A program made the translations under genes and the position numbers. Below are positions 3,701-45,877 of a stretch of 64,000 nucleotides of DNA, one piece after another (position 1 is the stretch's first letter; the number at the start of each line of letters is the position of its first letter). Source of the DNA: Desulfosediminicola flagellatus (GTDB lineage Bacteria > Desulfobacterota > Desulfobulbia > Desulfobulbales > Desulfocapsaceae); assembly GCF_005116655.2 (NCBI RefSeq), contig NZ_CP050698.1, forward strand, positions 1,070,001 through 1,134,000, given 5' to 3'. The notes below the pieces were generated by a model that was not told the DNA's origin, did not search any database, and saw nothing but the letters and a program-made list of their open reading frames with translations.

Positions 3701-3792
3701 TTTTCATGAGATTTTTTTAAGTGCCTAAATGTTATGGAAGAGAAGTAGAATCAGCACACGTCATTGTGACAGACTGTTTGCTTGCAGGTTAA

Positions 3793-3838: not shown

Positions 3839-3912
3839 GCATTTTCAATGTGCCGGGTATGCCTCGGAAATCTTTGGCCAAGATGTGTTAAAATACCCTG
3901 AAGATTTTATAC

Positions 3913-5768: not shown

Positions 5769-5790
5769 ATAACACCTACTAGAGTTATGG

Positions 5791-5822
5791 AGAATGAGAC
5801 CTTGCAGGCAAGGTCTCATTCT
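5791..5822 (-). terminator. Hairpin between dctP and dctQ
   Basis: A perfect 15-bp inverted repeat (AGAATGAGACCTTGC) has a 2-base loop and no T-run on either side. It sits between the binding-protein gene and the permease genes. It probably stabilises the dctP message or partly terminates, giving more binding protein than permease. That role is inference from position and strength. Confidence 0.65.
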
Positions 5823-5850
5823 TCGAGCATTTCACACTGCTAACGCGTTA

Positions 5851-6876
5851 TTATCCCTTGTTATTCTTCAATACATCAATCAACTGCTTGCTGTACTTAT
5901 TCTCAGCGGCATACTCGCCCCACAAAGATTCACCAGCTTCAGCCCAGATTTTTTTGTCAGTTTCATTTGGAGTTGCACTCCAGAGCAGGCCTTTGCTTTC
6001 CATCTCTGTGACTGCCTCAGATTCCCACTTTTTGGACATTGCAAGTTGTGATTTGGCGTGAATTTCAGTCGCTTCCATAACTACTTTTTTGAGGTCATCA
6101 GGAAGCTTATTCCAGGCTTTTTGATTAACAAGAATAGGAAGGACCTGTGCTCCGGCAAGAGGCAGGGGATACATGTATTGGGCAACTTCAACATGATTAC
6201 CATCACGATGATCAATCATGTTGCTGCCAATTGATCCATCAATAACTCCAGTCGCTAAACTGGTGTAGATCTCACTCCAGGCAAGAGAAACAGGTGAAGC
6301 ACCTAATTTACGTAAGAATTTACCATAAGCTCCAGGAGCACGAATTTTGAGCCCTTTGAAGTCCTCAACGGAATTAATTTTGTTTTTGGTCAGAATGTAT
6401 ACCGGTGGCTGAATATACGGTTCGAGCCATTCCAAACCATGCTCGCCATATGCTTCCTTAAGAATAGGAGACCAGCCTTTATCGTGAAAGAGTGAATACA
6501 GTTCACTCGTGTCGCTTGTACCGCCTGGCAGACCAATTTCGACAACTCCGGCAGGGAGTTCACCCGCATGCATTGACTGAAAAGGAGCAACCATTGTCAG
6601 CAAGCCGGTCTTTGCTGCGCTGAGCATTCCACTCGTGCCTACGCCTTCTCCTGAATAGAGCACCTGAACCTTAATTCTGCCGCCGGACATCTCGCCGATG
6701 TTCTTGCCGAGATCCTCATAAAGAGCACCAAAAGCGGTTCCACGACCATAGAGATTTCCAAAACGCCAGTTATGTTCTGCTGAAGCAGCGTTTGTAGCAC
6801 AGACGGCTAATCCTAAGCCTACCAGCATTGTTGACTTGAGAATTGTACTTTTCATACCTTGTAGAATCGGTAACAT
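5851..6876 (-). CDS. dctP: TRAP transporter solute-binding protein (DctP type)
   Basis: This 341-aa periplasmic binding protein is exported by a signal peptide (residues 1-32, ending NAASA). DctP-family marks include the KIRAPGAYGKFLRKLGASPVS region with the substrate-carboxylate-binding Arg, and SLATGVIDGS. ATG at 6876 has AAGGGAG upstream; the frame open to 6993 has no such site. It is the first gene of dctPQM, behind two sigma-54-type promoter sequences. The regulator and kinase genes lie immediately upstream on the same strand, suggesting substrate-induced expression. Confidence 0.92.
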   Translation of the reverse strand: MLPILQGMKSTILKSTMLVGLGLAVCATNAASAEHNWRFGNLYGRGTAFGALYEDLGKNIGEMSGGRIKVQVLYSGEGVGTSGMLSAAKTGLLTMVAPFQSMHAGELPAGVVEIGLPGGTSDTSELYSLFHDKGWSPILKEAYGEHGLEWLEPYIQPPVYILTKNKINSVEDFKGLKIRAPGAYGKFLRKLGASPVSLAWSEIYTSLATGVIDGSIGSNMIDHRDGNHVEVAQYMYPLPLAGAQVLPILVNQKAWNKLPDDLKKVVMEATEIHAKSQLAMSKKWESEAVTEMESKGLLWSATPNETDKKIWAEAGESLWGEYAAENKYSKQLIDVLKNNKG

Positions 6877-7032
6877 GTTTTCTCCCTTGTGATGTATTGG
6901 TTTATTGATCGGCAAAAGTATTTTCACATATCCTTCAAAGACATTGATATGACAAAGACTCTTTAAACGAAGAACATCTCTTGCCTGTTTCAAAAAAAAT
7001 ATGAGAAATTAGGTCTGGTAGAAGGTGTATTC

Positions 7033-7048
7033 AGCAAGTACCTGCCCC
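7033..7048 (-). promoter_or_regulatory. Second, weaker sigma-54 promoter candidate for dctPQM
   Basis: The minus strand reads GGGGCAGGTACTTGCT, with GG and GC ten bases apart as sigma-54 requires. It is a near direct repeat, 32 bases away, of the better site at 7065-7080 (both lie in ATTCAGCAA(G/A)TACC on the plus strand). It could be a second start or a decoy. Confidence 0.45.
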
Positions 7049-7064
7049 TGACGTATCTTTATTC

Positions 7065-7080
7065 AGCAAATACCGAGCCA
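7065..7080 (-). promoter_or_regulatory. Sigma-54 (-24/-12) promoter for dctPQM
   Basis: The minus strand reads TGGCTCGGTATTTGCT, matching TGGCAC-N5-TTGCW with invariant GG and GC at the right spacing. It lies about 190 bases upstream of the dctP start, downstream of palindromic activator-type sites and of a sigma-54 response regulator gene. Confidence 0.75.
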
Positions 7081-7160
7081 GGAGTTAATTTTTTCAGGAA
7101 GAGTGGTGAGTTGTGTTTTTAGCCATGAAATCAAACATTCAGGATTCGGTGGAAAGGTTT

Positions 7161-7211
7161 GTGTCAACCAGGTCGTCAACCAGGGTTGACGTTGTAAGCC
7201 ATGGTTGACAC
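7161..7211 (-). promoter_or_regulatory. Cluster of GTCAACC/GGTTGAC sites (probable activator binding)
   Basis: The cluster holds GTGTCAACC (7161), a perfect 16-bp palindrome GTCAACCAGGGTTGAC (7175-7190), and GGTTGACAC (7203-7211). A further ATGGTTGACACAC is at 7391-7403. The cluster is about 95-145 bases upstream of the -24 element on the minus strand, the usual place for enhancer sites of an NtrC-family activator. The likely binder is the neighbouring response regulator. Confidence 0.7.
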
Positions 7212-7407
7212 GGGGTGTGAAGTACAGTTTTGACGAAATTACAGGGAGGAGATTTGCTTGAGGCAGGCGTTCAGGCAGGAAACGGGGCAGTTGGTAGTCG
7301 TTGCCTGTGTAATCCTGTCCTGAGATTATGAGTTAATGGAGTTACACCTGCAATCTCGTAGGTGATTCAGGAGTAATAGGTGTGTAAAACATGGTTGACA
7401 CACGAAA

Positions 7408-7596
7408 AAGGACTGAGGTTAAAGGGTTTAGGGCTGAGTGAAATGCATTGAAAATGCAATACGCTTTTTAAATACTCTGTCCTTTTACCTTTGGCCTAAG
7501 TCCTTATGCATGCGTCCAGTTTATACAGTGTGCTGAAATGACATAAAATTTGGTAAAAATGAAAGGATATGGGTAATAGGCTGTCCCAGTTGGGTA
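7408..7596. repeat. Palindromic intergenic repeat, copy A
   Basis: AAGGACTGAGGTTAAAGG (7408) faces CCTTTGGCCTAAGTCCTT (7488-7505), matching 15 of 18 as an inverted pair. A tail, AAAGGATATGGGTAATAGGC, follows. The right arm, read on the minus strand, matches the start of copy B (58668) almost base for base, including GGTAAAAGGAC. Both copies lie just outside genes. It is probably a small mobile or regulatory palindromic element. Confidence 0.55.
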
Positions 7597-7612
7597 TGAG
7601 ATATGATAAAAA

Positions 7613-9043
7613 TCAGATACTTTCTGAAGGATCCTCAGATGTTCGTTTTTTTAAACGTTTATTAAGTGCCTGTCTTGAAACGCCAAGTAACTGTGATGCT
7701 TGACTCTGATTGTTTTCGGTGACGTGAAGAGCCGTATCGATTGCAAATTCAGCAAGCTCTTCAAGTGTCGGGAAGTGACCGAAAATTTCCTCCAGCGGAT
7801 TTGTTAAGCCGGGTTCCTGAGTTTTCACAGAGACAGAACCAGCAAGCCTTTCGGAGAGGTGATTAACGTCAATGCGTCCATGATTGCATCTGGCTACAGC
7901 ATCTGAGATATAGGCTTTCAGTTCCCTGATGTTTCCCCAGAAGGGATGCTTCATTAAAAGGCTTAACGCCTTTTCGCCTATAACAGGAATCTCTTTATTC
8001 ATTGCTGTTGCAGTAGATGCAATTAAATGCTCAACGAGTAACGGAATATCCTCTCTACGGTCTCGTAATGGTGGTAATTTTGCGAGGTGAGTGCTGAGTC
8101 GATAGTAGAGATCCATTCTAAATTCCCCATCTCTTCCAGCAAGTTTGCTCAGGTCTTTATTTGTCGCTGTGATAATGCGTGCATGACACTCTTTAGGTTG
8201 ATCTGAGCCAAGAGGATAATAGATTTTTTCCTGGAGCAGCCTAAGAAGCTTCACCTGTGAGGCTTCACTGAGGTCTCCTATTTCATCAAGAAAAACTGTG
8301 CCATTGGCTGCTTTTTCGAGCATGCCGCTTCGTACAAAATCAGCACCTGTATACGCCCCTTTGGTATGTCCAAACAGGGTGTCTGAGAGCAACGTGTCAT
8401 CCAGGCCGGATATGTCGAGTGCAACAAACTCTCCCTGCAGCCCACTAATATCATGTATTGCCTTTGCAATAAGTTCTTTGCCGGAACCGGTTTCACCAAG
8501 TATCAATACTGGCAGGCCGCTTGTTGCAATCGATTCTATATATTGAAAGAGTCCGAGCATTATCGGGCTTCGTGATATTATTGGTTCAAATGCCTGGTTT
8601 TTAGTTGGATTGTCGTTGAATGAGATGCCTTTAAGGGACAGAACCTCCTCACGAAGAAAATTTATTTCCAGCGCGTTCCGTAGAGCGGAACTGAACATTT
8701 CGAGATTTATCGGTTTAACAAGGTAGTCATGGGCACCGAGCTTCAAACATTCAACAGCCGTCTCAATTTCAGAGTCTGCAGTGATGATAATGACGGGAAC
8801 CTGTGGCTTCTTGATTTTCAGTTCTTTCAGTACTTCCTGTCCTGTTTTGTTGGGCATATTGAGATCGAGAAACACTACAGGAGACTGCATTTTTTCCACT
8901 GTAGATAACACGTTGCGGCTATCACTGAGTGTTTTGATATTTGCCATACCCATTGATGAAAGCAAAAGGCTGTAGGCCTCAAGCTCATCACATTCATCGT
9001 CTACCAGAAGTATCTGGCAGTTTGTCATCTTTGAACTAATCAT
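7613..9043 (-). CDS. Sigma-54-dependent response regulator (NtrC/DctD type)
   Basis: This 476-aa protein has three parts: a receiver domain (residues 8-125, phospho-acceptor in VVFLDLNMP, Lys in YLVKPI), an AAA+ domain (Walker A GETGSGKE, Walker B GTVFLDEIGD, R-finger region LRDRREDIP) and a Fis-type helix-turn-helix at the end (SQASQLLGVSRQALNKRL). The sigma-54 contact loop is GAYTGA instead of GAFTGA; the key Thr is kept. ATG overlaps the kinase stop by 4 bases. It probably activates dctPQM through the palindromes at 7161-7211, by analogy with DctD. Confidence 0.92.
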   Translation of the reverse strand: MISSKMTNCQILLVDDECDELEAYSLLLSSMGMANIKTLSDSRNVLSTVEKMQSPVVFLDLNMPNKTGQEVLKELKIKKPQVPVIIITADSEIETAVECLKLGAHDYLVKPINLEMFSSALRNALEINFLREEVLSLKGISFNDNPTKNQAFEPIISRSPIMLGLFQYIESIATSGLPVLILGETGSGKELIAKAIHDISGLQGEFVALDISGLDDTLLSDTLFGHTKGAYTGADFVRSGMLEKAANGTVFLDEIGDLSEASQVKLLRLLQEKIYYPLGSDQPKECHARIITATNKDLSKLAGRDGEFRMDLYYRLSTHLAKLPPLRDRREDIPLLVEHLIASTATAMNKEIPVIGEKALSLLMKHPFWGNIRELKAYISDAVARCNHGRIDVNHLSERLAGSVSVKTQEPGLTNPLEEIFGHFPTLEELAEFAIDTALHVTENNQSQASQLLGVSRQALNKRLKKRTSEDPSESI

Positions 9044-11187
9044 TGACTGCTATCCGCTAGTATTTTATTGAGTTTGATTGTGAATTTTGCCCCGGAATCT
9101 GTGTTTGCTGCTGTAAGCGATCCACTCATCTGTTTTTCCACTATCATTTTCGACATATAGAGTCCCAGCCCTGAGCCTGAAGTTGATCCTTTCGTGGTAA
9201 AATACGGGTTGAAAATTCTCAGCATCAAATCCTCGGGTATGCCGCAACCACTGTCGCAGATTTCTATTTGAACAATATGTTCATCGTGGCTGACAACTAC
9301 TTTAATGGTTTTTGCCAGTGTTGCATCTCCCGCCTCGAGTGTGCGCTGCAGGATTGCGTCTTTCGCGTTTACGAGAAGATTTACAAGGACATGCACAAAT
9401 TCACGGCGGTAACCAAAAACCATGAGAGAATGTGTGCTTGTTTTGTTAATAACGCTGAGAGCAATGTCTGCGTGTTTAACTTGTGCTTCCAGCAGTTTGA
9501 CCGCACTTATAACTACCTTGAGAGCATCGACAGGCCCTTTTGATTTTGAAGGCTTGGAGAAATTCCTGAAATCATCAATCGTTTTTGACATGAAGTGGAT
9601 TTGCCGGTTGGCGCCTGTGACTAATTTTTCAACAAACGATTTCTCCAGCTTATTATTATAATGAGCGGCCTGTAGACTCGAGATATATGTAGAAAGGGTA
9701 TTGAGAGGTTGTCGCCATTGATGGGCGATTGCTCCTAGCATTTCACCTGCAGCCGCCAGTTTGTGAGCCTGAATAAGCTGCATTTCGGCATCAACCCGTT
9801 TGGAAATATCCCTGATACTATATAAGGTGAGTTCTTCATCTTTAAGTTTGAAAATTTTCCAACTGACAGATGTTGGGAATTCCATTCCATCAGACTTGAT
9901 AAATGACCACCTGAAGACCTGTTGCTCGTCATGAAGGGCCGCTGATAAGATTTTCTCTAATTTGTGTGCACTGGAAGAGCCGTCAGGTTGATTGACAGGT
10001 GATAACTCAAGGATACCTTTCCCGATGATATCGTTTTTTGGGAAGCCGAACAGTTCAATTGCTTTATGATTACACTCAGCACACTTGCTGCCATTGGTGA
10101 TCATGAACGCATCGTTTGCAACATTAAACAGTGTTTTATAGTACGTTTCAACTTCCTTTCTCTTGATAATATTCCATTGAAGATCTTTGTTGATTCCGGT
10201 TAATTCAAGCTGGTGCTGCTCTATGGCAGAACTGTAGCTTTTTCTATAGAAATAAAGACCTAAGCCACTTAATCCCACGACAAACAGTGCAACAAGAGCC
10301 AAAAATCCAAGCACCCTGAGAGCCATTTCCGTTGCAAATATCATCGTTGTTTTACGTGTGATAGAATATGCTTCTATTCGTGGCACTGTCACACACATAA
10401 ACCAGTCGGAGTTGTCAATCTGGCTGAATGAGAGTACGTGATCACGCATATCCTTTGAATGATACGTGACTGTCCCGACGTCCTTATTTTTAAAGTGATT
10501 AAGCCTGTTAGCAAGGTCGCTTTCGATGTCCTGTAATTTTTGTTGCATAACATAATTCTGATTACGATGGACCAGAATGGTACCATCTTTTTGAACAATG
10601 AATGCATGGCCGGTTTCTCCTACCTTCAGGTTCATCACATTATCGACAAGGGTATCGAGTACTGTGTCTGCCGACATCACCCCGATTATTTTCCCGTTAA
10701 CGATCAGTGGTTTAACAAGTGCGATAACAAATTTATTGGTAACAAGATCTATATAAGGAGTAGTAAAACTGATCTCTCCAACTGTAATTGCCCGTTGATA
10801 CCAGGGGCGCAATCGAGGATCATAATTGGTTGGTGGTGTCCAGTCTGCGCCATCGATCAACAGGCCGTCACTTCTGCCAATATACACATCGGAAAAGTGG
10901 CCGGCTTTCATTGCCATTTTTAATGGTTTGAGTGTTTCATCATTTGGTGCAAGGGCAGGTAACGGTACTGAATCGGCAGTAGCTGTGAGGATTTTCATTT
11001 GTTGAGCGAGCCATATTTCAACTGTATCTGCCGCTTTAACCGCGATTTCTTCTTGTTGATCAGCAATGGTTTTATTAACGATATGTTGAGTAATGCGGTG
11101 ATTGATGCCGGTGGCAACCAGAATCACCACGGACAGTGCAGCGACCGTTATAATGTATTTTTTATTAGGCATATTCACATTTGGCAT
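9040..11187 (-). CDS. Membrane histidine kinase with Cache sensor (DctB-like role)
   Basis: This 715-aa kinase has a membrane helix at residues 10-28 and a periplasmic double-Cache domain (residues 35-280, with the hallmark DPRLRPWYQRA and SADTVLDTL). A second helix (about 285-315) leads to a PAS domain (about 345-470), a phospho-acceptor segment AIAHQWRQPLNTL (His near 487) and an HATPase (NLLVNAKDAI, DSGCGIP, GSGLGLYMSK). Cache domains bind small ligands such as carboxylates or amino acids. Overlap with the regulator gene and adjacency to dctPQM indicate that it senses the transported solute. Confidence 0.9.
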   Translation of the reverse strand: MPNVNMPNKKYIITVAALSVVILVATGINHRITQHIVNKTIADQQEEIAVKAADTVEIWLAQQMKILTATADSVPLPALAPNDETLKPLKMAMKAGHFSDVYIGRSDGLLIDGADWTPPTNYDPRLRPWYQRAITVGEISFTTPYIDLVTNKFVIALVKPLIVNGKIIGVMSADTVLDTLVDNVMNLKVGETGHAFIVQKDGTILVHRNQNYVMQQKLQDIESDLANRLNHFKNKDVGTVTYHSKDMRDHVLSFSQIDNSDWFMCVTVPRIEAYSITRKTTMIFATEMALRVLGFLALVALFVVGLSGLGLYFYRKSYSSAIEQHQLELTGINKDLQWNIIKRKEVETYYKTLFNVANDAFMITNGSKCAECNHKAIELFGFPKNDIIGKGILELSPVNQPDGSSSAHKLEKILSAALHDEQQVFRWSFIKSDGMEFPTSVSWKIFKLKDEELTLYSIRDISKRVDAEMQLIQAHKLAAAGEMLGAIAHQWRQPLNTLSTYISSLQAAHYNNKLEKSFVEKLVTGANRQIHFMSKTIDDFRNFSKPSKSKGPVDALKVVISAVKLLEAQVKHADIALSVINKTSTHSLMVFGYRREFVHVLVNLLVNAKDAILQRTLEAGDATLAKTIKVVVSHDEHIVQIEICDSGCGIPEDLMLRIFNPYFTTKGSTSGSGLGLYMSKMIVEKQMSGSLTAANTDSGAKFTIKLNKILADSSQ

Positions 11188-34674: not shown

Positions 34675-35556
34675 ATGATTTCACGTCTTGAATTAACAGA
34701 GAAAATTATTGCTAAAGCGCAGTCCCTGGGAGCCTCCCTGGCGGGTGTTGCAAGTGTAGCATCTTTAAAAGCGTCTCCGTCTCATACCCTTTACCCCAGG
34801 CTTGGTAATAATCTGCATGAAAACACTGCAGAAATACGAGATGGTGATATCTTCGAAGTTGCCTGGCCTGAAGATGCTGTATCGGTGGTCGTGATCGGTG
34901 TTGAACACAGCGCCGAGAGACCGGAGCTTGACTGGTGGGATGGTAAGGGAACGTCCGGCAATCGAATTCTGATTGACATAAATAAGCACCTGTCAGCCTG
35001 GATTGAGGAAACACTTGGTGTTACAACCTATAAATTACCCTATGCTATTGAAAAAGGGGGGCTTTTTCTGAAAGATGCGGCGGTACTTGCCGGTTTAGGA
35101 TGTATTGGCCGGAATAACCTGGTCATTACACCTGAATATGGTCCCCGTATCCGCTTCAGGGCCATGTTGCTAGACAGGGAAGTTGAGCCGATCGTCTCTT
35201 CCGGTTTTAATCCTTGTGAACTTTGCGACGAGCCCTGTCGCAAAGTCTGCCCGGTACAGGCCTTCCAGAGCAAAATATATAGTGCCGAGTCTCTGGCTCA
35301 ATCAATATTGCCCGGTTTCGACGGCTACTATGACCGGGTTACCTGCAATTTGAAAATGGAAAAAGATATTGACGATGCGGCGAGGGACATATCTTCAGAT
35401 GAGAAGAAACAGCAGGAAGCCCGGAAGATGATCAACGAGTTTGAAAAAAGTCATATCAATGCGCCAACCCGGAAACAACCGGTGAAATATTGCGTCAAAT
35501 ACTGCAGGAAATGTGAGCTGCGTTGTCCAGTTGGACAAAAGGCAGGGAAGATCTGA
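34675..35556 (+). CDS. QueG-like 4Fe-4S protein
   Basis: This 293-aa protein resembles the epoxyqueuosine reductase family. Its central motif is GGLFLKDAAVLAGLGCIGRNNLVITPEYGPRIR (shown in QueG-type proteins as AGLGWIGKN...). Two ferredoxin-type clusters are present: CELCDEPCRKVCP (about 182-194) and CVKYCRKCELRCP near the C-terminus. It is shorter than QueG and has no HEAT-repeat end, so true tRNA queuosine function is doubtful. It may be a reductase or reductive activator of a corrinoid enzyme, which would suit the MttB-family gene downstream. That link is speculative. Confidence 0.65.
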   Translation: MISRLELTEKIIAKAQSLGASLAGVASVASLKASPSHTLYPRLGNNLHENTAEIRDGDIFEVAWPEDAVSVVVIGVEHSAERPELDWWDGKGTSGNRILIDINKHLSAWIEETLGVTTYKLPYAIEKGGLFLKDAAVLAGLGCIGRNNLVITPEYGPRIRFRAMLLDREVEPIVSSGFNPCELCDEPCRKVCPVQAFQSKIYSAESLAQSILPGFDGYYDRVTCNLKMEKDIDDAARDISSDEKKQQEARKMINEFEKSHINAPTRKQPVKYCVKYCRKCELRCPVGQKAGKI

Positions 35557-35691: not shown

Positions 35692-37146
35692 GTGGACAAC
35701 GATAGACAAGCAGATTTGCCAGAAGAAAAAGCAACAGTAGAAAAAGAGCTGCTGCAGTTGAAAAAGACTAACAGAGATCTGCTGAAGCGGCTTGAGCAAA
35801 TGTCCTGTTTGTTGAACAACCTTCCTGGTATGGCATTTCGCTGTCTGTATGATACGCAATTGACTATCGAGTATGCCAGTGAAGGTTCTAAAACTATCCT
35901 GGGCTATGATCCTGATCAAATTGTAAGTGGTCTGGCATTTCGACAGATGGTCCATAAGGATGATCAGGCGCATAATAAGGAAGTGGTCAGCAGTTTGACG
36001 CCAGAAAATAATAGATACAATTTAATCTATCGAATGCAGGATGCTTTTGGTGATAATCGATGGATTCATGAGCAGGGTATTGCTATCTATTCTGATGATG
36101 GTCAACCGGTGGCTATTGAAGGTCTTCTTACCGATATTACTGAACAGAAAAACAGAGAAATCAAGCTTCATGCTGAAAATTATCGGTTACGTTCTTCAAT
36201 TAAGGAACGCTATCGTCTCGGACAATTAATCGGCAAAAGTCAGGCAATGCAGAATATCTATGAGCGTATTGTCAAAGCTGCTGATACTGAAGCCAGTGTA
36301 ATCATTAACGGGGAATCGGGTACAGGCAAGGAGTTGGCTGCACGGGCTATCCACGAACTGAGTGAACGTCGAAATAAACCCTTTGTGGCTGTCAACTGCG
36401 GTGCTATCTCTGAAGCTTTGCTTGAAAGTGAATTCTTCGGTCATTTGAGAGGGTCCTTTTCAGGTGCGTACTCGGATCGTGATGGTTTTCTTATGGCTGC
36501 AAATGGGGGGACACTGTTTCTCGATGAGATAGGTGAAATGCCTTTGCAACTACAGGTAAAGCTTTTGCGGGCGTTGGACGGTCGGGGCTTTACTCCAGTC
36601 GGCGACAATAAGATTTTGTCTTCGGACTTCAAACTTATTTCGGCCAGCAACCGCGATCTTGCTCAAATGGTGAGGCAGGGAAAGATGCGGGAAGATTTCT
36701 ATTATCGTATTAATACTGTGCCTATTGTAATGCCTCCCTTGCACGAACGAAAGGAAGACCTGCCTCTGCTCATTGAACATTTTGTGAACAGTTACACGGT
36801 CGAAGAGGTAGAACTGTCTTCTGATTTCTACAGGCAACTCAATCAGCATAACTGGCCGGGTAATGTGAGGGAACTGCAGAATGTTATCAGACGTTACCTT
36901 ACGCTTAACGAAGTCAGCTTCAGTCCGTTGACCGATCAGACCTCAGCTGAACCAAATGAAGTTCCTGCGTATATTGATTCTCTATCAACTTCTCAAGGTG
37001 TCACTGCTGAACTGGTTGAGGTTGAAAGAAAGATTGTTCTTCTGGCACTGCAGGAAAATCGATGGAATATGGGTCAAACAGCAACTGCTCTCGGAATTAG
37101 CAGACGAACCCTGCAGCGTCGGGTGAATAAGCACAACCTCAAGTAG
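35692..37146 (+). CDS. PAS-containing sigma-54 activator (GSFSGA variant)
   Basis: This 484-aa protein has an N-terminal coiled coil (residues 8-38) and a PAS domain (about 40-155, MAFRCLYDTQLTIEYASEG). Its AAA+ domain has GESGTGKE and Walker B GGTLFLDEIGE, and a Fis-type HTH lies at the end (MGQTATALGISRRTLQRRV). The sigma-54 contact loop is GSFSGA instead of GAFTGA: the Thr is Ser, and the first Ala is Ser. The GTG start has GGGG nine bases upstream. Its likely target is the sigma-54 promoter at 37318, just beyond its own 3' end. Confidence 0.88.
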   Translation: MDNDRQADLPEEKATVEKELLQLKKTNRDLLKRLEQMSCLLNNLPGMAFRCLYDTQLTIEYASEGSKTILGYDPDQIVSGLAFRQMVHKDDQAHNKEVVSSLTPENNRYNLIYRMQDAFGDNRWIHEQGIAIYSDDGQPVAIEGLLTDITEQKNREIKLHAENYRLRSSIKERYRLGQLIGKSQAMQNIYERIVKAADTEASVIINGESGTGKELAARAIHELSERRNKPFVAVNCGAISEALLESEFFGHLRGSFSGAYSDRDGFLMAANGGTLFLDEIGEMPLQLQVKLLRALDGRGFTPVGDNKILSSDFKLISASNRDLAQMVRQGKMREDFYYRINTVPIVMPPLHERKEDLPLLIEHFVNSYTVEEVELSSDFYRQLNQHNWPGNVRELQNVIRRYLTLNEVSFSPLTDQTSAEPNEVPAYIDSLSTSQGVTAELVEVERKIVLLALQENRWNMGQTATALGISRRTLQRRVNKHNLK

Positions 37147-37156
37147 TCCTTTAATC

Positions 37157-37170
37157 GGCCAAATCTGGCC
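37157..37170 (+). terminator. Small hairpin after the activator gene
   Basis: GGCCA-AATC-TGGCC is followed by ACTTTTAAT, 10 bases after the activator stop. It is a short, possibly weak terminator; it could equally be an operator half of the downstream promoter region. Confidence 0.4.
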
Positions 37171-37221
37171 ACTTTTAATAAAGTACGTAACTACAGTTGT
37201 TTATGGTGGTGTGTGTCTGCT

Positions 37222-37243
37222 TGTCGGTCATATGTGTCCGGCA
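37222..37243 (+). promoter_or_regulatory. Imperfect dyad upstream of the sulfatase-type gene
   Basis: TGTCGGTCA and TGTCCGGCA form an inverted pair (7 of 9) around TATG. It lies about 75 bases upstream of the -24 element, a position suited to an enhancer site for the PAS activator. Only one copy is seen, so confidence is limited. Confidence 0.4.
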
Positions 37244-37317: not shown

Positions 37318-37333
37318 TGGCATATCTTTTGCT
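37318..37333 (+). promoter_or_regulatory. Consensus sigma-54 promoter for the sulfatase-type operon
   Basis: TGGCATATCTTTTGCT has GG and GC ten bases apart and the TTTTGCT end. It is nearly the same as the promoter at 13514. It is 115 bases upstream of the ATG at 37448 and directly downstream of a sigma-54 activator gene. Confidence 0.87.
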
Positions 37334-37447
37334 ACAACTGACACAAATATAATCGTCGCATAAATGCGGCCAGGTAAAGATTTGTATGGCCGTCATAATT
37401 GATGGCAATCAAATCTTCTAAACTATATGTGTCAGGAGAATTACGTA

Positions 37448-39013
37448 ATGAACGTTCCAAAAAACGTCGTTTATATCATGCTCGACAGCCTTCAATGGCA
37501 CTACATGGGTTGTTATGGAGGCAAAGTCTGCAAAACTCCAAACTTCGATCGATTAGCCCGCGAAGGCGTGGTTTTTGAAAATGTATATTCGGAAGGTTTG
37601 CCAACTATTCCGGTTCGGCGTGCTCTGATGACCGGACGCTTCACCCTGCCGTATCGTGGATGGTCTCCTCTCGAACTTGATGATACCACCATCGCCGACA
37701 TCCTCTGGCGGCATAGTACATATAGTGGCCTGATCACCGATACAGCTGTAATGCATTTGCCGAAATATGGCTACCAGCGCGGGTTTGATTTTGTATACAA
37801 CCTGCGCGGTCATGATGATGATAATCACTATTATGCCCAGGACCCTATCTACCATTTGAATATGGAAGATTATCATAAGCCTTCTTACCGCACCGACGAA
37901 AATGGTGAGCAGGTTGAAGAGATGTGGTCAGAGTTTTCACGGGATGAAATGGTCGGTTATCTTGCTCAGCGTCAATATTGGCGAACCGACGAAGACCAGA
38001 ATGTGGCGGACATTGCCAAGAAATCTATCCGTTTCCTTGAAGAAATAGATCGTAATAAACCATTTTTCCTCTGGATCGACAGTTTTGACCCGCATGAGCC
38101 ATGGGATGCCCCAAGTATTTATGACCCTGAAATAACCTGCCCGTATGATCCTGATTATGATGGCCAGGAAATCTGGAATCCGGTATCGACTTACGCCGAC
38201 AACGTGTATACCGACAGGGAAATGGAGCATATTCGAGCTCTGTATGCAGAAAAAATCACCAACGTTGATAAATGGATCGGTAAGGTCATTGATCGTGTCC
38301 GTACTCTGGGTCTTGAGCAAAGCACCATGATAGTCTTAATGTCCGATCACGGTGAGCCGCTTGGCAATGGTGCTCATGGGCATGGAATTGTCAGAAAGTG
38401 CCGCCCATGGCCGTATGAAGAGCTTGTGCATGTACCAATGATTGTCAAAGCTCCCGGCCTTGAAGCGGGCAAGCGCATCCCCGGTCTGGTGCAGAATATT
38501 GATATATCAACCACCATGATGGAATGGCTTGAGGTTCCAAAAGAATCCTGGGCTGACATGCAGGGCAAGAGTCTCTGGCCTATTATGAAAGGCGAGACAG
38601 ATAAGGTTAATGATTTTGTCATTACCGGATTCTTCGGCCAGGCCTGGTCAATTATCACTGAGGACTGGTCGTATATCCACTGGCTTAACCCGGTTGCTCT
38701 CGAGAACTCGGAAGCCGGTGGTAAGACCATGTTTGAAGTGTTTGATATAGAAGAAGGTGAGGTGTCTGAAGGCATTAAAGATGCTCAGACGATGTTCGAC
38801 AAGATCAAAAATCAGCAGGAAAATCAATGGACCTGCGTCCCGGGTTCTCTCACTGAGGTTCCTGCGGTGGATGGACTGTATAACCGCCATAAAGATCCTT
38901 TTCAGCTGGAAAACGTCGCTGCACAGCATCCTGAGATAGCACGTGAACTCTTTGATAAATTGCGTGAGTTCATGATGGAGTTGAAAGCGGAGACCATCTA
39001 TACCACAGCTTGA
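37448..39013 (+). CDS. Sulfatase-fold hydrolase with Thr at the formylglycine position
   Basis: This 521-aa cytoplasmic protein (no signal peptide) belongs to the alkaline phosphatase/sulfatase superfamily. Seen marks are the N-terminal metal Asp (YIMLDSLQW, D13), TPNFDRLAREGVVFENVYS, the nucleophile region LPTIPVRRALMTGR, DPHEPW, the second metal site LMSDHGEP (about 299-300), and GHG. Sulfatases need Cys or Ser in [C/S]-x-P-x-R; here Thr53 is present. Formylglycine cannot form from Thr, so a phospho- or phosphonate-ester chemistry with a Thr nucleophile is possible. The substrate is unknown. AGGAG precedes ATG 37448. Confidence 0.85.
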   Translation: MNVPKNVVYIMLDSLQWHYMGCYGGKVCKTPNFDRLAREGVVFENVYSEGLPTIPVRRALMTGRFTLPYRGWSPLELDDTTIADILWRHSTYSGLITDTAVMHLPKYGYQRGFDFVYNLRGHDDDNHYYAQDPIYHLNMEDYHKPSYRTDENGEQVEEMWSEFSRDEMVGYLAQRQYWRTDEDQNVADIAKKSIRFLEEIDRNKPFFLWIDSFDPHEPWDAPSIYDPEITCPYDPDYDGQEIWNPVSTYADNVYTDREMEHIRALYAEKITNVDKWIGKVIDRVRTLGLEQSTMIVLMSDHGEPLGNGAHGHGIVRKCRPWPYEELVHVPMIVKAPGLEAGKRIPGLVQNIDISTTMMEWLEVPKESWADMQGKSLWPIMKGETDKVNDFVITGFFGQAWSIITEDWSYIHWLNPVALENSEAGGKTMFEVFDIEEGEVSEGIKDAQTMFDKIKNQQENQWTCVPGSLTEVPAVDGLYNRHKDPFQLENVAAQHPEIARELFDKLREFMMELKAETIYTTA

Positions 39014-39018
39014 TATTT

Positions 39019-39055
39019 AAGGCGGAGAGGCAGCCATTGCCCTCCGCCTTTTCTT
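39019..39055 (+). terminator. Intrinsic terminator or attenuator after the sulfatase-type gene
   Basis: AAGGCGGAG pairs with CTCCGCCTT, extended by GGCA/TGCC with one bulged base, and TTTTCTTAT follows. It lies between the sulfatase-type gene and the thioredoxin gene, so the downstream genes are expressed by partial read-through or from another promoter. Confidence 0.75.
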
Positions 39056-39074
39056 ATATGACAGGATACACGAT

Positions 39075-39386
39075 ATGTTTACTGAAATTTCAGATGAAAA
39101 TTTTTCCGATAGCGTGGCAGGTGGCCTGAATATTGTACTTTTTTATAAAGAAAAATGCCCATTCTGCAAAGCGATGAAGAAGATCATTACTAAATTTTCT
39201 GACCGGCCTGCCGCAGCGGGAAAAGAGATAGGCTATTTTCATATTAATCGCGAAACATGCCCCAAATCTACGGAAGCGATGGAGATAGAGCGCATCCCTG
39301 CTGTTATCATTTTCCGTGACGGTCAGAAGGTTCATTCCAAGAGCGGTGATATTACTTATAAGGATCTGGAGCGGATGATCGCCTGA
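39075..39386 (+). CDS. Thioredoxin-like protein (CPFC)
   Basis: This 103-aa protein has a single thioredoxin fold with the active site KCPFC (Cys28 and Cys31) and the cis-Pro in ERIPAVIIF. CPFC differs from the usual CGPC and is nearer to glutaredoxin CPYC, so its redox potential should differ from that of housekeeping thioredoxin. The reductase gene follows after 14 bases, so the pair is a dedicated electron line. Its neighbours are a sulfatase-fold enzyme, a BCCT transporter and an MttB-family protein, which suggests a role in their catabolic pathway. Confidence 0.85.
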   Translation: MFTEISDENFSDSVAGGLNIVLFYKEKCPFCKAMKKIITKFSDRPAAAGKEIGYFHINRETCPKSTEAMEIERIPAVIIFRDGQKVHSKSGDITYKDLERMIA

Positions 39387-39400
39387 GGCGGGAGTTGAAT

Positions 39401-40315
39401 ATGAACAATACATACGATCTCATTATTGTAGGCGGTGGTATAACCGGCATGACCGCAGCGATCTATGCAGCACGGGCCAATCTTAAAACGCTGGTGCTTG
39501 AGAAAATGGTATGTGGAGGTCTTGTGAACTCCACCCATGTCGTGGAGAATTTTCCATCGTATCCATCAATTAACGGCATGGATCTTATGGAAAAGGTTCG
39601 CGACCATGTAGATGCCCTTGGTGTTGAGGTTATTGAAATCGTCGAAATTGAGTCGCTACATTTAACAGGCGAACGTAAATCCGTTGTTACAGACGAAGGT
39701 GATTTCTCATCTTCAGCCATCATTCTGGCTACAGGTCGCACCCCTAGAAAACTCCCTATAGAAACCGATTTTGAGCAGATTCACTACTGCGCAATATGTG
39801 ACGGCACTGCCTATAAGGATAAAGATGTTGTTGTAATAGGTGGTGGCAATAGTGGTGTTGACGAGTCACTGTATATGCTTGGTTTAGGCGTGCGCTCAAT
39901 TCTTGTGGTTGAAGAGTTTGACCGGCTGCTCGCCTCAGAAAGTGCATGCAGACAGCTCACAAGTTCCCCCGATGTTGAGGTGATGACCTCGACCAGAATC
40001 GAGGCTATACATGGCAATGGTCGCCTTGAGAGTATCAGCCTTCGTAAAAAAGATGATGATTCGCGCCTTACAAAAGCTGTAGATGGGATTTTTGTCTATA
40101 TCGGCCAGGATCCCCAGACAGATCTTTATGTCGAGCAGCTGGAACTGGACAAGGCCGGCTACATTCCAGTGGACAGCGAAATGAAGACTGCTTTACCAGG
40201 GGTCTTCGCCGCAGGAGATGTGATTCAGAAGAAGTTCAGACAGATAACAACTGCTATGGGGGACGGGACAATCGCAGCCCTCTCCGCCATAGAATATCTG
40301 ACAACCTTAAGGTAA
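39401..40315 (+). CDS. Thioredoxin reductase-like flavoprotein
   Basis: This 304-aa NAD(P)H-linked FAD enzyme has an FAD site GGGITGMTAAIYAARA at the start, the redox pair HYCAICDG (Cys130 and Cys133), a pyridine-nucleotide site VVVIGGGNSGVDES, and the C-terminal FAD contact LPGVFAAGDVI. GGGAG lies 7 bases before ATG 39401; a TTG two codons upstream is possible. The NAD(P)H-site motif is GGGNSG rather than the common GGGDSA/AAE types. It presumably reduces the CPFC thioredoxin encoded just upstream. Confidence 0.9.
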   Translation: MNNTYDLIIVGGGITGMTAAIYAARANLKTLVLEKMVCGGLVNSTHVVENFPSYPSINGMDLMEKVRDHVDALGVEVIEIVEIESLHLTGERKSVVTDEGDFSSSAIILATGRTPRKLPIETDFEQIHYCAICDGTAYKDKDVVVIGGGNSGVDESLYMLGLGVRSILVVEEFDRLLASESACRQLTSSPDVEVMTSTRIEAIHGNGRLESISLRKKDDDSRLTKAVDGIFVYIGQDPQTDLYVEQLELDKAGYIPVDSEMKTALPGVFAAGDVIQKKFRQITTAMGDGTIAALSAIEYLTTLR

Positions 40316-40438
40316 GGCCGGAAGTTACAAAATTACTCCCCCATGAATCGTAAACGTTGTATTTCTTGCATGACATACTACATAGTAGTGGCAAGCATGC
40401 GCATCATTTAGCAGTTGGATTAGCGAGGAGAGCACGGT

Positions 40439-41998
40439 ATGGAACACGCGGAAACTATAGCTGCACCCGCCCGGGAAAATTTCTTTAAAAAGCACATCGG
40501 TGATATTGACCCGCCACTGTTCTGGACAACTGGTGCTATTATTATGGCAACAGTTGTATACGGAGCAGTGTCACCAAAGAGTTTTGATGGGGTACTGTCA
40601 AAGTTGCAGCAGATCATTACGGTCAATCTGAATTGGTATTTTATACTTTCCATTGCCATTTATCTCGGTGTTTGCGGGACAATTGCCTTTGGAAAATACG
40701 GTGATCTTAAACTTGGTAAGGATGATGAGAAGCCGCAGTTCAGTTACTTTTCCTGGATTGCTATGCTCTTTAGCTGTGGTGTAGGTGTGGGATATGCATT
40801 CTGGGCGGTTGGCGAACCGGTAATGCACTATATGAACACCCCGTACCTTGCTGAATCGCAGACACCAGCGGCAATGCCTGTGGCTATTCAAATTGGTGTA
40901 ATGCACTGGGGGTTACATGCCTGGGCTGTATTTGCCCTGGTTGGTCTGGCAATCGCCTTTCCTGCCTATCGGCTTGGCAAACCTATGAATGTATCTATTG
41001 CACTGTATGGCATTTTTGGCGATAAAATCATCGGTAGTCGCTTTGGTCGTTTTGTTGAGTTTCTTGCAGCTTTTGGCACTGTGGCAGGTGTGAGTACAGC
41101 CCTTGGGCTTGGTATTATCAGTATCAATGCAGGTGTTAAACATATTTTTGGAACTGGTCTCAGCACCTCGGGCATGGTGATGTTTATGATTTTTCTTATC
41201 GGCTGCTATATTCTGTCAGCAGTTTCCGGTATCGAAAAAGGTATTAAAAACCTCTCAACCATTAATGTCTATGTGGCGTTTATCTGGGGGGCTTTCATAT
41301 TGATCATGGGGCCAACCACCGACCTTTTAAACCTTACCGTTCAAACTGCAGGAAGTTATATCAATAATTTTGTCTACATGACTTTCTGGACCGATTTTGA
41401 CGCTAAATCGGGCTGGCTTGGCTGGTGGACTGTCTTTTACTGGATTTGGTGGATCTCCTGGGGACCATTCTGCGGCGGTTTTGTTGCCCGTATTTCCCGG
41501 GGACGTACCATTCGTGAGTTTATACTTGGGGTGGCGCTCGTTCCGACGCTTGTCGCTATTGTCTGGTTCTCAATAGTTGGCGGCGCCTCACAGTTTGCCC
41601 AGATAAACGAAACTGCACCAATGGCCGAAGCATTGAAAGCTGATATGGGATCAGGTATTTACGTGCTACTCTCAAGCTTTAGCTTCGGCGATTACATGGG
41701 CTATCTCGTATTTATTAATCTCTTGATTTTTCTTATAACATCGGCAGATTCAGCCTCCTTCTTCGTTGCTATGCAGATGTCACGCGGTAGTTACGAACCG
41801 ACTACCCTTATGAAACTGATCTGGGGTGGATTTATTGGTTCTCTGGCATTGGTTCTGCTCGTAAGTGGTGGTTTGCAGGCCTTGCAAAAGGCTTCAATAA
41901 TTGCCGGTGCACCATTTTCGATTATCATTTTTATGATGATTATCTCACTATTTAGAATGTTGCGAAAGGCGCATGAGGAATCAGGCCGCCTTGTCTAG
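40439..41998 (+). CDS. BCCT-family transporter
   Basis: This 519-aa protein has about 12 helices and belongs to the betaine/choline/carnitine transporter family. It has the Gly-rich helix SCGVGVGYAFWAVGEP and the Trp box WTVFYWIWWISWGPF, whose aromatic cage binds quaternary ammonium groups. FVARISRGRTIREF follows. Substrates of the family are glycine betaine, choline, carnitine, gamma-butyrobetaine, ectoine or DMSP. Placed between a redox pair and an MttB-family gene, it probably imports the methylated compound that this cluster degrades. Confidence 0.92.
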   Translation: MEHAETIAAPARENFFKKHIGDIDPPLFWTTGAIIMATVVYGAVSPKSFDGVLSKLQQIITVNLNWYFILSIAIYLGVCGTIAFGKYGDLKLGKDDEKPQFSYFSWIAMLFSCGVGVGYAFWAVGEPVMHYMNTPYLAESQTPAAMPVAIQIGVMHWGLHAWAVFALVGLAIAFPAYRLGKPMNVSIALYGIFGDKIIGSRFGRFVEFLAAFGTVAGVSTALGLGIISINAGVKHIFGTGLSTSGMVMFMIFLIGCYILSAVSGIEKGIKNLSTINVYVAFIWGAFILIMGPTTDLLNLTVQTAGSYINNFVYMTFWTDFDAKSGWLGWWTVFYWIWWISWGPFCGGFVARISRGRTIREFILGVALVPTLVAIVWFSIVGGASQFAQINETAPMAEALKADMGSGIYVLLSSFSFGDYMGYLVFINLLIFLITSADSASFFVAMQMSRGSYEPTTLMKLIWGGFIGSLALVLLVSGGLQALQKASIIAGAPFSIIIFMMIISLFRMLRKAHEESGRLV

Positions 41999-42071
41999 CA
42001 GCGTATGATAATACACGACGGGAAGATGAATGTTTACTACCTCTACAATTTCCCGGAGAAGGAACTTTCAG

Positions 42072-43331
42072 ATGCAAACAGATGCTAAAATGATGGAAAA
42101 ACAGCGCTTTGGTAATGACGAGCTGTATCAGCAGATGCAGCAGGATGCGCTCTTACTTATCGAATCATATGGCGTTGCTGTCTCTCCGGAATCTGCCGAA
42201 AAACTACTTGGTGCCATGCCTGCTGATGAAGCAGCGAGAGTAATTTACAGTGCAGATACCGGACGGATATATATTACCCAGGATGTAATCGAAGATTGTC
42301 TGGACAGGGTTCGTCAGGGAATGGATTATTGGCCTACAGGCTTCGGTACCGGTGGTATGGCGGCATACATTGTGGATGGTAAGGAACCCAGGTCACCTGA
42401 AGGCGCTGACATGAAGCAGTTGGCGGAGCTCTTTGGTAAAACCGATATCCTTACCAACCTTCAGTCTTCGTTTAACATCTGCAGCAGGGTGAAGCGAAGC
42501 GATATGGCAACTCGTGCAGAAATCGAGACGAGCGCAATTGATGATATGATTGCAGGGGCTAATGGTAAGCTCATTATGCCGACGATTTTATCCGAGGGCG
42601 GTTATGATCGCTTGCAACATTATGCAGAAAAAGGTCACAGGGTAGGAGCTGCATTGAGTATCATCTCGACCTATATGACCATAAGTGATGAGATGGTCGA
42701 TCCACTTTTGAAAACGGTGACTCGAGATTTACCGTATATTATGAACGCGATGCCAATCGGCGGACTAACCGGCCCCTACAGTATGACAGCACTTGCAAGT
42801 CTTGCGCAGGCGGAGGCGATATTCGGTCTCGTCCTTGGTCAGTTGATTCGACCGGGTATCAAGGCGATCAATGCTGCCATGCCGACGATTGCCGATATGA
42901 CCAGCAAGGATATGCCGATGAAGTTTGGCAGTATTTCGAACACGATGATCAATATTCTGCTCGCCGAGCTGAATATGTATCTGGGGATCCCGTGCTGCCA
43001 GAGTTCATGCAGTCATCAGCGCGATACCCTCGATGATGTGGCGATAGATAAAAGTGCAGAGATCTTCAGCCTGGTTGCCCGGTATGACTACCAAATCTTA
43101 CGGCATATGTTCGGTTTTTCAGCACAGTTGAATGATTTTGGTATTGATAATATGCAAAAGCAGATTGATCAGTTTCATCAGGTGATGGCAAATCCGATTG
43201 CAGTAGAATTGCCGGAACCTGCTCAATATGATGCTGAAGGACTTGATGCGATTTTCGAGGGATTTGAGCGCCGAGATTTCAGGGCACTTGATCACACTCT
43301 GAAAAACATAGGTAAATCATTTAATTCCTGA
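42072..43331 (+). CDS. MttB-family methyltransferase (no pyrrolysine)
   Basis: This 419-aa protein (433 from the upstream ATG 42030) belongs to the trimethylamine methyltransferase family. It is recognised from LLIESYGVAVSPESAEKLL, the mid-region GGLTGPYSMTALASLAQAEAIFGLVLGQLIRPG, and DTLDDVAIDKSAE. The reading frame has no internal TAG, so it is a pyrrolysine-free member; such members demethylate glycine betaine, proline betaine, carnitine or related compounds onto a corrinoid protein. No corrinoid protein or methyl-corrinoid:H4folate transferase is encoded nearby. AAGGAA precedes 42072. It is probably in one transcript with the BCCT gene. Confidence 0.82.
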   Translation: MQTDAKMMEKQRFGNDELYQQMQQDALLLIESYGVAVSPESAEKLLGAMPADEAARVIYSADTGRIYITQDVIEDCLDRVRQGMDYWPTGFGTGGMAAYIVDGKEPRSPEGADMKQLAELFGKTDILTNLQSSFNICSRVKRSDMATRAEIETSAIDDMIAGANGKLIMPTILSEGGYDRLQHYAEKGHRVGAALSIISTYMTISDEMVDPLLKTVTRDLPYIMNAMPIGGLTGPYSMTALASLAQAEAIFGLVLGQLIRPGIKAINAAMPTIADMTSKDMPMKFGSISNTMINILLAELNMYLGIPCCQSSCSHQRDTLDDVAIDKSAEIFSLVARYDYQILRHMFGFSAQLNDFGIDNMQKQIDQFHQVMANPIAVELPEPAQYDAEGLDAIFEGFERRDFRALDHTLKNIGKSFNS

Positions 43332-43420: not shown

Positions 43421-45877
43421 TTATAGATTGTGCTTATCCAGTGCCTCCCGTATCGCAACTGCCAGTTCAGATGTGCTGACCGGCTTCGTCAGAAATATAT
43501 TTGCGCCCATAGCTGCAGCATTTGTCTTTTGCATCCTTTCGCTAAAACCGGTGCACACAATGACCGGAAGATCCGGTTTAATTGCATGTAGTTCACGTAT
43601 AAGCTGATCCCCCGTCATTTGCGGCATAGTCATGTCGGTAATCACCAGATCAAATGCCTCAGGATGAGCTGCAAAGACTTTAAGGGCATCAATACTGCTT
43701 GTCAGAGAGGTAATGTGGTAACCGAGACGATGAAGTATTTGTGCTTCCAGATCAACAATCGCCTGTTCATCATCTACTATCAATAGGTGTTCAGTTCCAG
43801 TAGGATACCGGGTATTTTCTATAGTAGTTTCAACACGACGCTGAGTAGTCTGAATAATCGGTAAAAATACGCTAAATCGTGTACCTTTTCCAAGCTCGCT
43901 ATAGACAAGGATATCGCCTTTATGCGCCTTGACTATTCCGTAAACCACCGCCAGCCCGAGCCCTGTTCCTTTTCCTTGTTCCTTGGTCGTAAAATACGGC
44001 TCAAAAATATTACCGATGACCTCCGGTTCAATGCCGCATCCAGTATCAGAAACAGAGAGCACAGCATAAGAACCATTTTTTAGTTCATCTGGTCCTTCGC
44101 CAGAGCCTTCAAGCAGCATTTCCTTCAGCTCTATTGAGATAACACCATCATTCTGCCCGATAGACTGAAAGGCATTTGTGAGCAAATTCATAGCTACCTG
44201 ATACAGCTGGGTAGGATCAGCCACAACCAGACCACAATCCTCTTCCATATTTTGAATAATTTCAATATTGGCAGGAATAGTTGGACGTCCGAGCTTAATT
44301 ACCTCCTGTACTATGTTTTTCATCTGAACAGGTATCATTTCATGTTCATACTGACGGCTAAAAGCAAGGATCTGCTTGACAAGGGCACTGCCTCTTCGCC
44401 CTGCTTTCAGAATTCTTTCCGCGCTTTCATATTCCAAACTGTTATCTGGCAAAGAAGTCATGAGTAATTCAGCATAACCCATGATAGGCGATAAAATATT
44501 ATTGAAATCGTGAGCTATACCGCCTGCAAGATTACCTATTGCCTCAATTTTCTGAGCATGTTGCAATTGCTCTTCCATTTTTATTCTTTCGGTGATGTCC
44601 TGCACTACACCTACAACCTTAATCGGATTGCCATCATCATCATCAACTCGTTCTGCTATCGATTTTATGCTTTTGCGTTTCCGGCTACCTATTGCTTCAA
44701 TTTCATATTCAATGTTGTATGGCAGATTATGCTTGATTAAGTCGATCAGCGCCTGATGAACGCGTTCCCGCTCAATAATACATTTCTCCACCTCTTCTGT
44801 TGTTAAGCTGACACTATCCGGCTCAAAACCAAAAATCCTTCTTGCTTCGTCTGACGCCCAAAAAGATTCAGTCACAAGATCAAATTCCCAATTACCGACC
44901 TTTCCCATACGTTGCGCTTGTATGTATCGAGACTCGCTTTCCCGTAGTTTATCCTCCTTCTCCTTACGACCCCGTATGTCACGTGCAATGCCGATGGTAT
45001 AGCCTTCACCAAGGGTCTGTAACAGGGTTATTTTTATTTCGACAGGATAGGTTGTTCCATCCTTTCGACGATGTTTCGATTCCAGGGTGATTGGTTCTCC
45101 GGGAGACAACGACTCAATAAATGTTTTAAATTTTACGGGATCAGTCATCTCGGCATCAATATCAGTCACCCGCAGTCTGAGCAATTCATCCTCTGTGTAT
45201 CCAGTCACACGACATGCCTGTTCATTAACACGTACCAGTTGACCATCCAGACGAGAGACATAGATCGCATCAGAGGCTTTTCCAAACAAAATCGAGAGTC
45301 GTTCTGAACTCTCCTGGAGTGTGAGATTGGTACGTTTATTGGCGAGAGACTGCTCTGCTAAATCGGTAAGAAATGCGGCAAAGGCGGTGTTATACTTCAG
45401 GACATTATCTACTTGTTCATGTTTAAAAACAGGTACAGCATCAAGAGCAGCAAGATATCCCGCAAGGTCATATCCAAAAGTCTTTGCCTGATTGGAAAAG
45501 AATACTTTATCTGGAACTTCATCTTCATAAAAAAACTGCCCGAAAAACAGCGTAGCCAGATGTTTTCCTGAAACTACAATTGGTATGCCGATATCCCAAA
45601 GACCATGTGTACATTTGTATTTGCAGGCTTTACCCAGAGTAAGACGGGAATGTATATATCGATCACTTTCCTGACAGCCAGCCAGGGAATCCGGATGCGC
45701 TCGGTGAAATTTCAGGCAGATATCCTGCCAGCCGGCTGCTACCAGCACCGATCCATCGACAGCATCAATAATTCCGATGGGCATACCTGCTGACGCATAA
45801 TGTGCTTCAACCATTTTTTGCACAGCCGCCACATCTATGAGCTCTGAAAGTTGCAATTTATCCATTCTTGAAACCAT
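43421..45877 (-). CDS. Hybrid histidine kinase with PocR sensor domain
   Basis: This 818-aa cytoplasmic kinase has an N-terminal PocR domain (residues 10-175: IIDAVDGSVLVAAGWQDICLKFH, CKYKCTHGLWDIGIPIVVSG, LATLFFGQFFYEDE). Two PAS domains (about 190-305 and 320-435), HisKA (GGIAHDFNNILSPIMG, His near 457), HATPase (NLLTNAFQSIG, GTGLGLAVVYG) and a receiver (LIVDDEQAIV, acceptor LVITDMTMPQ near 745) follow. PocR domains are thought to bind small hydrocarbon derivatives. It converges with the MttB-family gene and may sense that pathway's substrate; this is inferred from position. Confidence 0.87.
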   Translation of the reverse strand: MVSRMDKLQLSELIDVAAVQKMVEAHYASAGMPIGIIDAVDGSVLVAAGWQDICLKFHRAHPDSLAGCQESDRYIHSRLTLGKACKYKCTHGLWDIGIPIVVSGKHLATLFFGQFFYEDEVPDKVFFSNQAKTFGYDLAGYLAALDAVPVFKHEQVDNVLKYNTAFAAFLTDLAEQSLANKRTNLTLQESSERLSILFGKASDAIYVSRLDGQLVRVNEQACRVTGYTEDELLRLRVTDIDAEMTDPVKFKTFIESLSPGEPITLESKHRRKDGTTYPVEIKITLLQTLGEGYTIGIARDIRGRKEKEDKLRESESRYIQAQRMGKVGNWEFDLVTESFWASDEARRIFGFEPDSVSLTTEEVEKCIIERERVHQALIDLIKHNLPYNIEYEIEAIGSRKRKSIKSIAERVDDDDGNPIKVVGVVQDITERIKMEEQLQHAQKIEAIGNLAGGIAHDFNNILSPIMGYAELLMTSLPDNSLEYESAERILKAGRRGSALVKQILAFSRQYEHEMIPVQMKNIVQEVIKLGRPTIPANIEIIQNMEEDCGLVVADPTQLYQVAMNLLTNAFQSIGQNDGVISIELKEMLLEGSGEGPDELKNGSYAVLSVSDTGCGIEPEVIGNIFEPYFTTKEQGKGTGLGLAVVYGIVKAHKGDILVYSELGKGTRFSVFLPIIQTTQRRVETTIENTRYPTGTEHLLIVDDEQAIVDLEAQILHRLGYHITSLTSSIDALKVFAAHPEAFDLVITDMTMPQMTGDQLIRELHAIKPDLPVIVCTGFSERMQKTNAAAMGANIFLTKPVSTSELAVAIREALDKHNL

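Follow-up and report, generated by a model that had tools for sequence, protein, structure and literature searches.

A conserved gene cluster of Desulfobacterota that places a threonine-type sulfatase-fold enzyme beside its own thioredoxin, thioredoxin reductase and a variable transporter

Overview

The sigma-54-controlled cluster described here forms a real and conserved genetic unit which is undescribed in the literature searched (searches on the gene combination brought up no comparable system), and it represents a single branch of a broader module in which a sulfatase-fold enzyme keeps a thioredoxin and a thioredoxin reductase beside it as the accompanying transporter changes from one lineage to another. 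It lies in the window, that is the whole stretch of 64,000 nucleotides that was analysed, and the host genome is a 6.75-Mb single contig from the Desulfobacterota, 97% complete. Such a combination of constant and variable parts would be consistent with thiol-coupled removal of a sulfo group from imported organosulfur compounds, a reading that is favoured tentatively and weighed below against its alternatives.

Layout and control of the cluster

The five genes, together with the activator that precedes them and the PocR kinase that follows, were all found in the order and on the strands that the original prediction, made from the letters alone, had given. The features are as follows.

35692-37146, + strand: PAS-sigma-54 activator (Pfam Sigma54_activat, 224 bits; PAS; Fis-type HTH), the probable operon regulator
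37155-37172: candidate activator site 1, TCGGCCAAATCTGGCCAC, a 5-4-5 palindrome
37224-37241: candidate activator site 2, TCGGTCATATGTGTCCGG, a 5-4-5 palindrome, 69 bp from site 1
37318-37333, + strand: -24/-12 promoter, TGGCATATCTTTTGCT, score 14/16
37427-39013, + strand: open reading frame of the sulfatase-fold enzyme (likely start 37448), with Thr60 at the position of the formylglycine cysteine; Pfam 154 bits
39019-39050, + strand: GC-rich hairpin with a T-rich tail after the sulfatase-fold gene, z -5.2
39075-39386, + strand: thioredoxin, CPFC; Pfam Thioredoxin, 47 bits
39401-40315, + strand: thioredoxin reductase, CAIC, with VEEFDR in place of the HRRxxxR NADPH motif
40439-41998, + strand: BCCT transporter; Pfam BCCT, 544 bits
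42030-43331, + strand: open reading frame of a divergent MttB-superfamily protein (likely start 42072) with a CCxSSCxH motif; 51.8 bits in the MTTB family, whose cut-off is 25 bits
43357-43398, + strand: terminator hairpin closing the operon, z -5.1, with a T run
43421-45877, - strand: PocR-PAS hybrid kinase

For the sulfatase-like and MttB-like genes the ribosome-binding site and the N-termini of orthologues make 37448 and 42072 the likelier true starts, the former being preceded by AGGAG at 37434-37438; residues of the sulfatase-fold enzyme are numbered throughout from the ATG at 37427. PADLOC gave no match for a defence function, and Rfam gave none for RNA elements. At 34675-35556 there is also a gene for a 293-residue protein with several cysteine clusters and without a Pfam match; L024 has a 45% identical counterpart (517-1302) in the neighbourhood of its orthologous cluster.

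Among shuffled 430-nt regions about 1% reach a promoter score of 14/16. For all six orthologues the top-scoring upstream site is again of the -24/-12 type, with 12-13 of 16 at -113 to -144; these orthologous elements were recovered with a weighted score, a stricter score having missed most of them. The consensus promoter that had been proposed is borne out, as is the view of the cluster as one sigma-54-controlled, co-conserved unit. Paired 5-4-5 palindromes about 69-71 bp apart occur upstream of the window cluster and of L024, L025, L026, L027 and L100, the orthologous promoters carrying CGACA-N4-TGTCG pairs at about the same spacing as those of the window, and such pairs are good candidates for the activator sites. 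The hairpin after the first gene is likewise real, a strong one being present in five of the six orthologues tested (L023, L024, L025, L026 and L100). To that extent the graded expression that had been proposed gains support, with the caveat that the T run is absent from some copies, so that either an internal terminator or a stabilising stem would fit 39019-39050.

Conservation in other genomes

Orthologues of the enzyme 82-85% identical to it were found in Desulfobacula, an uncultured Desulfobacteraceae, a Desulfobacterium MAG, Dethiosulfatarculus sandiegensis and Desulfocicer vacuolatum, and a further one in G939; together with the window copy these six form a single clade (support 100). 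Across several other Desulfobacterota the activator, enzyme, thioredoxin, reductase and BCCT genes occur in that order, mostly with the MttB-like gene as well, the full order including the latter being seen in L025 and L026. The activator homologue, 51-53% identical, stands directly upstream in L023-L027, and its reading frame is broken in L100; the L023 and L024 clusters end at contig borders, and a canonical MTTB protein (438 bits) occupies the last position in L027. That neighbours might prove not to be conserved together had been named as grounds for abandoning the prediction, and gene order is in fact kept. The PocR kinase, offered as a cluster neighbour, is present in the window, yet it is not kept beside the orthologous clusters.

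Some further observations may be recorded here. In L023, from a Desulfobacula MAG, the cluster is preceded at 1149-4863 by histidinol-dehydrogenase-like, DegT aminotransferase and PALP genes resembling those of C3-sulfonate breakdown. The host genome has a second BCCT gene near a divergent MttB-like gene, without a sulfatase-fold gene (L133, G000:C1:4070001-4089000, at 4808-10591). Viral contigs gave no relatives of the MttB-like protein, and among the best plasmid matches listed there were only sulfatases of 27-30% identity.

The wider module

The distribution of the enzyme, which rests mainly on Desulfobacterota genomes, is sparse at the level of the phylum (6/395 genomes) and of the order (4/258) in whole-genome searches, and it reaches 34/288 genomes in one Desulfovibrionaceae-type family, the identities being mostly 46-53%. 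When the neighbourhoods of 62 copies were compared, some of them at loci ending at contig borders, a thioredoxin reductase was found beside the enzyme in 45 and a thioredoxin in 43; several loci, mostly extra Mailhella copies, have no thioredoxin within range. Because the thioredoxin and reductase are kept with the enzyme where BCCT and MttB are absent, they belong to the sulfatase-fold enzyme rather than to betaine chemistry, and service of the thioredoxin to the MttB-like or BCCT protein is rejected.

The transporters, for their part, alternate over the 62 loci between BCCT, TRAP, TTT, MFS, DASS/CitMHS and NhaC-type, and their type follows the phylogeny of the enzyme (15 label changes, against a mean of 41 after shuffling), the members with BCCT forming one clade (support 100); the transporter would on this basis determine what each copy acts on. 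Beside many copies stands a small protein, poor in cysteine in most cases and with weak likeness to Thioredoxin_3; none was seen in the window.

Individual loci add other neighbours. In gut Desulfovibrionaceae (L077, 2264-4975; L072; L047) the module comes with a cysteine-synthase-like PLP enzyme and a protein resembling trigger factor, and in two close relatives (L021, L022) it adjoins genes for a TTT transporter and a member of the proline racemase family. The enzyme is followed in Desulfatitalea (L030, 11509-15874) by a metallo-beta-lactamase protein resembling alkyl sulfatases and by a TRAP transporter; in L046 (G087), whose genome gave no DsrA or Sat match, its neighbour is a homologue of old yellow enzyme, and genes for MttB, corrinoid-like and methyltransferase proteins are close by.

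The sulfatase-fold enzyme

The enzyme matches Pfam PF00884 (154 bits), and its AlphaFold model (mean pLDDT 86) has S1 sulfatases and phosphonate monoester hydrolases as its nearest solved folds, for instance 6hr5 with Z 35.1 and rmsd 2.4 over 348 residues. Two-metal threonine enzymes (NPP, phosphonoacetate hydrolase) are absent among the nearest folds listed, which does not exclude likeness to them. Position 60, aligned to the formylglycine cysteine of sulfatases, is threonine in all 61 enzymes examined, as had been predicted, so that the enzyme has neither the convertible Cys or Ser of the C/S-x-P/A-x-R motif of S1 sulfatases nor the formylglycine nucleophile of phosphonate monoester hydrolases; in the host genome, five ordinary sulfatases have Cys at this position. 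Asp20, Arg64, His223, His319 and Lys324 are found in 61/61 enzymes, and Asp307 and His308 in 60/61, so that apart from the nucleophile the sulfatase active site is kept, and cleavage by the enzyme, which the original prediction had assigned to it, is supported as a predicted function.

Likeness to known members of the superfamily (SpAS1/SpAS2, choline sulfatase, PMH) thus extends to a common fold, with Z about 30-35 over 350-400 residues, and to the Asp/Arg/His/Lys pattern; choline sulfatase is also cytosolic, like the enzyme here. These relatives have a formylglycine Cys or Ser, whereas the present enzyme has Thr together with invariant Cys238 and Cys470, and its own thioredoxin pair and variable transporters set the module further apart. 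Threonine nucleophiles elsewhere in the superfamily act on phosphorus substrates, which counts against the sulfo-transfer reading given below. Both cysteines are present in 60/60 members and absent only from a distant, 40% identical paralogue in G640 (L099, 9432-10736), which keeps the threonine and has no thioredoxin pair nearby; a single paralogue is weak evidence.

Redox partners, transporter and MttB-like protein

The thioredoxin has the expected fold with a CxxC motif, at a score below the NCBIfam cut-off for canonical thioredoxin, and all 25 family thioredoxins examined have CPxC. FAD and NAD domains with a redox CxxC (CAIC) likewise mark the reductase, which scores 288 bits against TIGR01292, below the 343-bit cut-off. 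The HRRxxxR motif for NADPH is missing from 31/31 reductases, which have Glu at that place; this suggests use of NADH, and the reductase is probably NADH-dependent. A dedicated CPFC thioredoxin and reductase had been predicted, and both are present and kept beside the enzyme in other genomes. Glycine and betaine reductase (grd) operons with trxA/trxB also place a dedicated thioredoxin pair beside betaine transport; those operons contain grd genes, whereas Pfam analysis of all the cluster genes revealed none here, where the thioredoxin is of the CPFC kind, and a betaine-reductase operon was rejected.

The transporter belongs to the BCCT family (PF02028, 544 bits), keeps the aromatic-box motif as WWISW and is closest among solved structures to the trimethylamine transporter 8zw8 (375 bits), in agreement with the predicted import of a quaternary-amine-like compound. 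The MttB-like protein (433 residues) is 14-17% identical to solved MttB and MtgB, and its model (pLDDT 85) superimposes on 7xcl with Z 33.2 and rmsd 2.9 over 354 residues, the next family reaching Z 20. It thus shares with the MttB superfamily (MtgB, MttB, MthB) both fold (Z 30-33) and family profile (51.8 bits), and differs from it in being shorter, in carrying CCxSSCxH, a motif of its own branch, where MtgB has SRSGGGLND, and in that no corrinoid protein was found in the host genome, which encodes three MTTB-family proteins. A search of that genome for the corrinoid-protein cap domain PF02607 gave no match, the same search being positive in E. coli and eight other controls, with the proviso that a corrinoid protein without that domain, or one missed by the assembly, would escape it; genomes G637-G641 and G939, which have orthologous clusters, do have PF02607 corrinoid proteins. 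Corrinoid demethylation would therefore have no partner in the host genome, and demethylation as a last step there, as originally proposed, seems unlikely, even though the protein has the MttB fold.

Metabolic setting of the carriers

DsrA was found in 46 of 51 carrier genomes. The five without a match (G087, G818, G820, G876 and G912), some of them incomplete and two (G820 and G876) about 99-100% complete, weaken any argument from sulfite respiration. ATP sulfurylase (Sat) was not found in the five g335 (Mailhella) genomes tested (G808, G810, G814, G818, G820), nor in G642, G645, G646 and G689; DsrA is present in G642, G808, G810, G814, G645, G646 and G689. The highest number of enzyme copies in the Mailhella-like genomes, nine, is in G642. 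Mailhella has been described as an organosulfonate and sulfite respirer (PMC13219744), and the lack of Sat in Taurinivorans is consistent with its inability to respire sulfate (PMC10507020). Since Mailhella-like genomes without ATP sulfurylase would have no respiratory use for free sulfate, copies yielding sulfite would serve respiration in such carriers and copies yielding sulfate would not, an argument that is circumstantial; the copies might supply carbon instead.

Proposed mechanism and alternatives

Thiol-coupled removal of a sulfo group to sulfite, as the core of the module, fits its constant parts best and is tentatively preferred. The transporter, here BCCT, would import an organosulfur anion, which for the window is probably a quaternary-ammonium or sulfonium compound bearing either a sulfate ester, much like choline sulfate, or a sulfonate, much like taurine betaine. 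After uptake, Thr60, replacing formylglycine, would take the sulfo group from the substrate within the cell to give a sulfo-threonine; a thiol, whether Cys238 or Cys470 of the enzyme or the CPxC of the thioredoxin, would then take it over as an S-sulfonate, and the thioredoxin with its reductase would set it free as sulfite, to be used by dissimilatory sulfite reductase, leaving the MttB-like protein to act on the quaternary-amine product. PAPS/APS reductase (CysH) offers a likeness in proposed mechanism only, a sulfo group passing to a thiol and thioredoxin releasing sulfite; its fold and substrate are unrelated, and the mechanism proposed here involves no nucleotide.

The main rival, only slightly less probable, is that the Thr60 enzyme is an ordinary hydrolase of sulfate, phosphate or phosphonate esters without any need for thiols, the thioredoxin pair merely keeping Cys238 and Cys470 reduced as an activity switch. 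The invariance of these two cysteines would suit such a switch, the nearest folds are those of S1 sulfatases and phosphonate monoester hydrolases, and choline sulfatase without formylglycine still turns over slowly by plain hydrolysis (PMC6189696), so that thiolysis is not required; by our own estimate, thiolysis of simple alkyl sulfates may indeed be uphill. Against this, equipping every hydrolase with a thioredoxin and reductase of its own would be costly as a mere switch in a strict anaerobe, and the sulfate released would be of no respiratory use to carriers lacking Sat.

It is unlikely, though worth stating, that the same thiol-coupled chemistry acts on C-S bonds by reductive desulfonation (R-SO3- + 2[H] -> RH + sulfite). 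The analogy is with phosphonoacetate hydrolase, which cleaves C-P with a Thr nucleophile; carriers include organosulfonate respirers, TRAP, TTT, MFS and DASS are kinds of transporters that carry C2-C3 sulfonates, and in the surroundings of L023 there are histidinol-dehydrogenase-like, aminotransferase and PLP-lyase genes that recall the breakdown of dihydroxypropanesulfonate or cysteate. Those neighbours are, however, several kb off, beyond other genes, the reaction needs a stabilised carbanion, and we know of no sulfatase-superfamily enzyme that cleaves C-S. Less probable still is the pathway first envisaged, in which an esterified betaine-like compound is imported, its ester is cleaved and the MttB-like protein carries out a corrinoid-dependent demethylation. 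It can draw on the joint conservation, in five genomes, of BCCT with a protein of the MttB fold (Z 33 to MttB), on the canonical MTTB protein in the last slot of Desulfocicer and on the existence of a phosphocholine-demethylating MttB-family enzyme (PMC12155760), but it is faced with the CCxSSCxH motif, with a cluster that has neither corrinoid protein nor methyl-THF transferase in a host genome without a PF02607 match, and with a thioredoxin pair that it leaves unexplained.

Implications

Thiol-coupled sulfo removal may be extended to a thioredoxin-coupled, sulfo-transferring family on a sulfatase scaffold, with threonine and cysteines in place of formylglycine, through which sulfidogens would respire organosulfur compounds by releasing sulfite directly and bypassing ATP-dependent sulfate activation, each copy being matched to its own transporter; so broad a claim is possible rather than probable. 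If it is true, organic sulfur would have a new way into sulfide formation that avoids ATP sulfurylase, both in the gut and in sediments, and a sulfatase-fold enzyme would be seen to depend on thiols instead of formylglycine. Should the mechanism prove wrong, what remains is an enzyme family, so far unannotated, whose redox partner is fixed and whose transporters give a hint of the substrate for each copy, which opens the substrates to direct test; the BCCT clade is also a candidate for the handling of betaine-like osmolytes by sulfate reducers.
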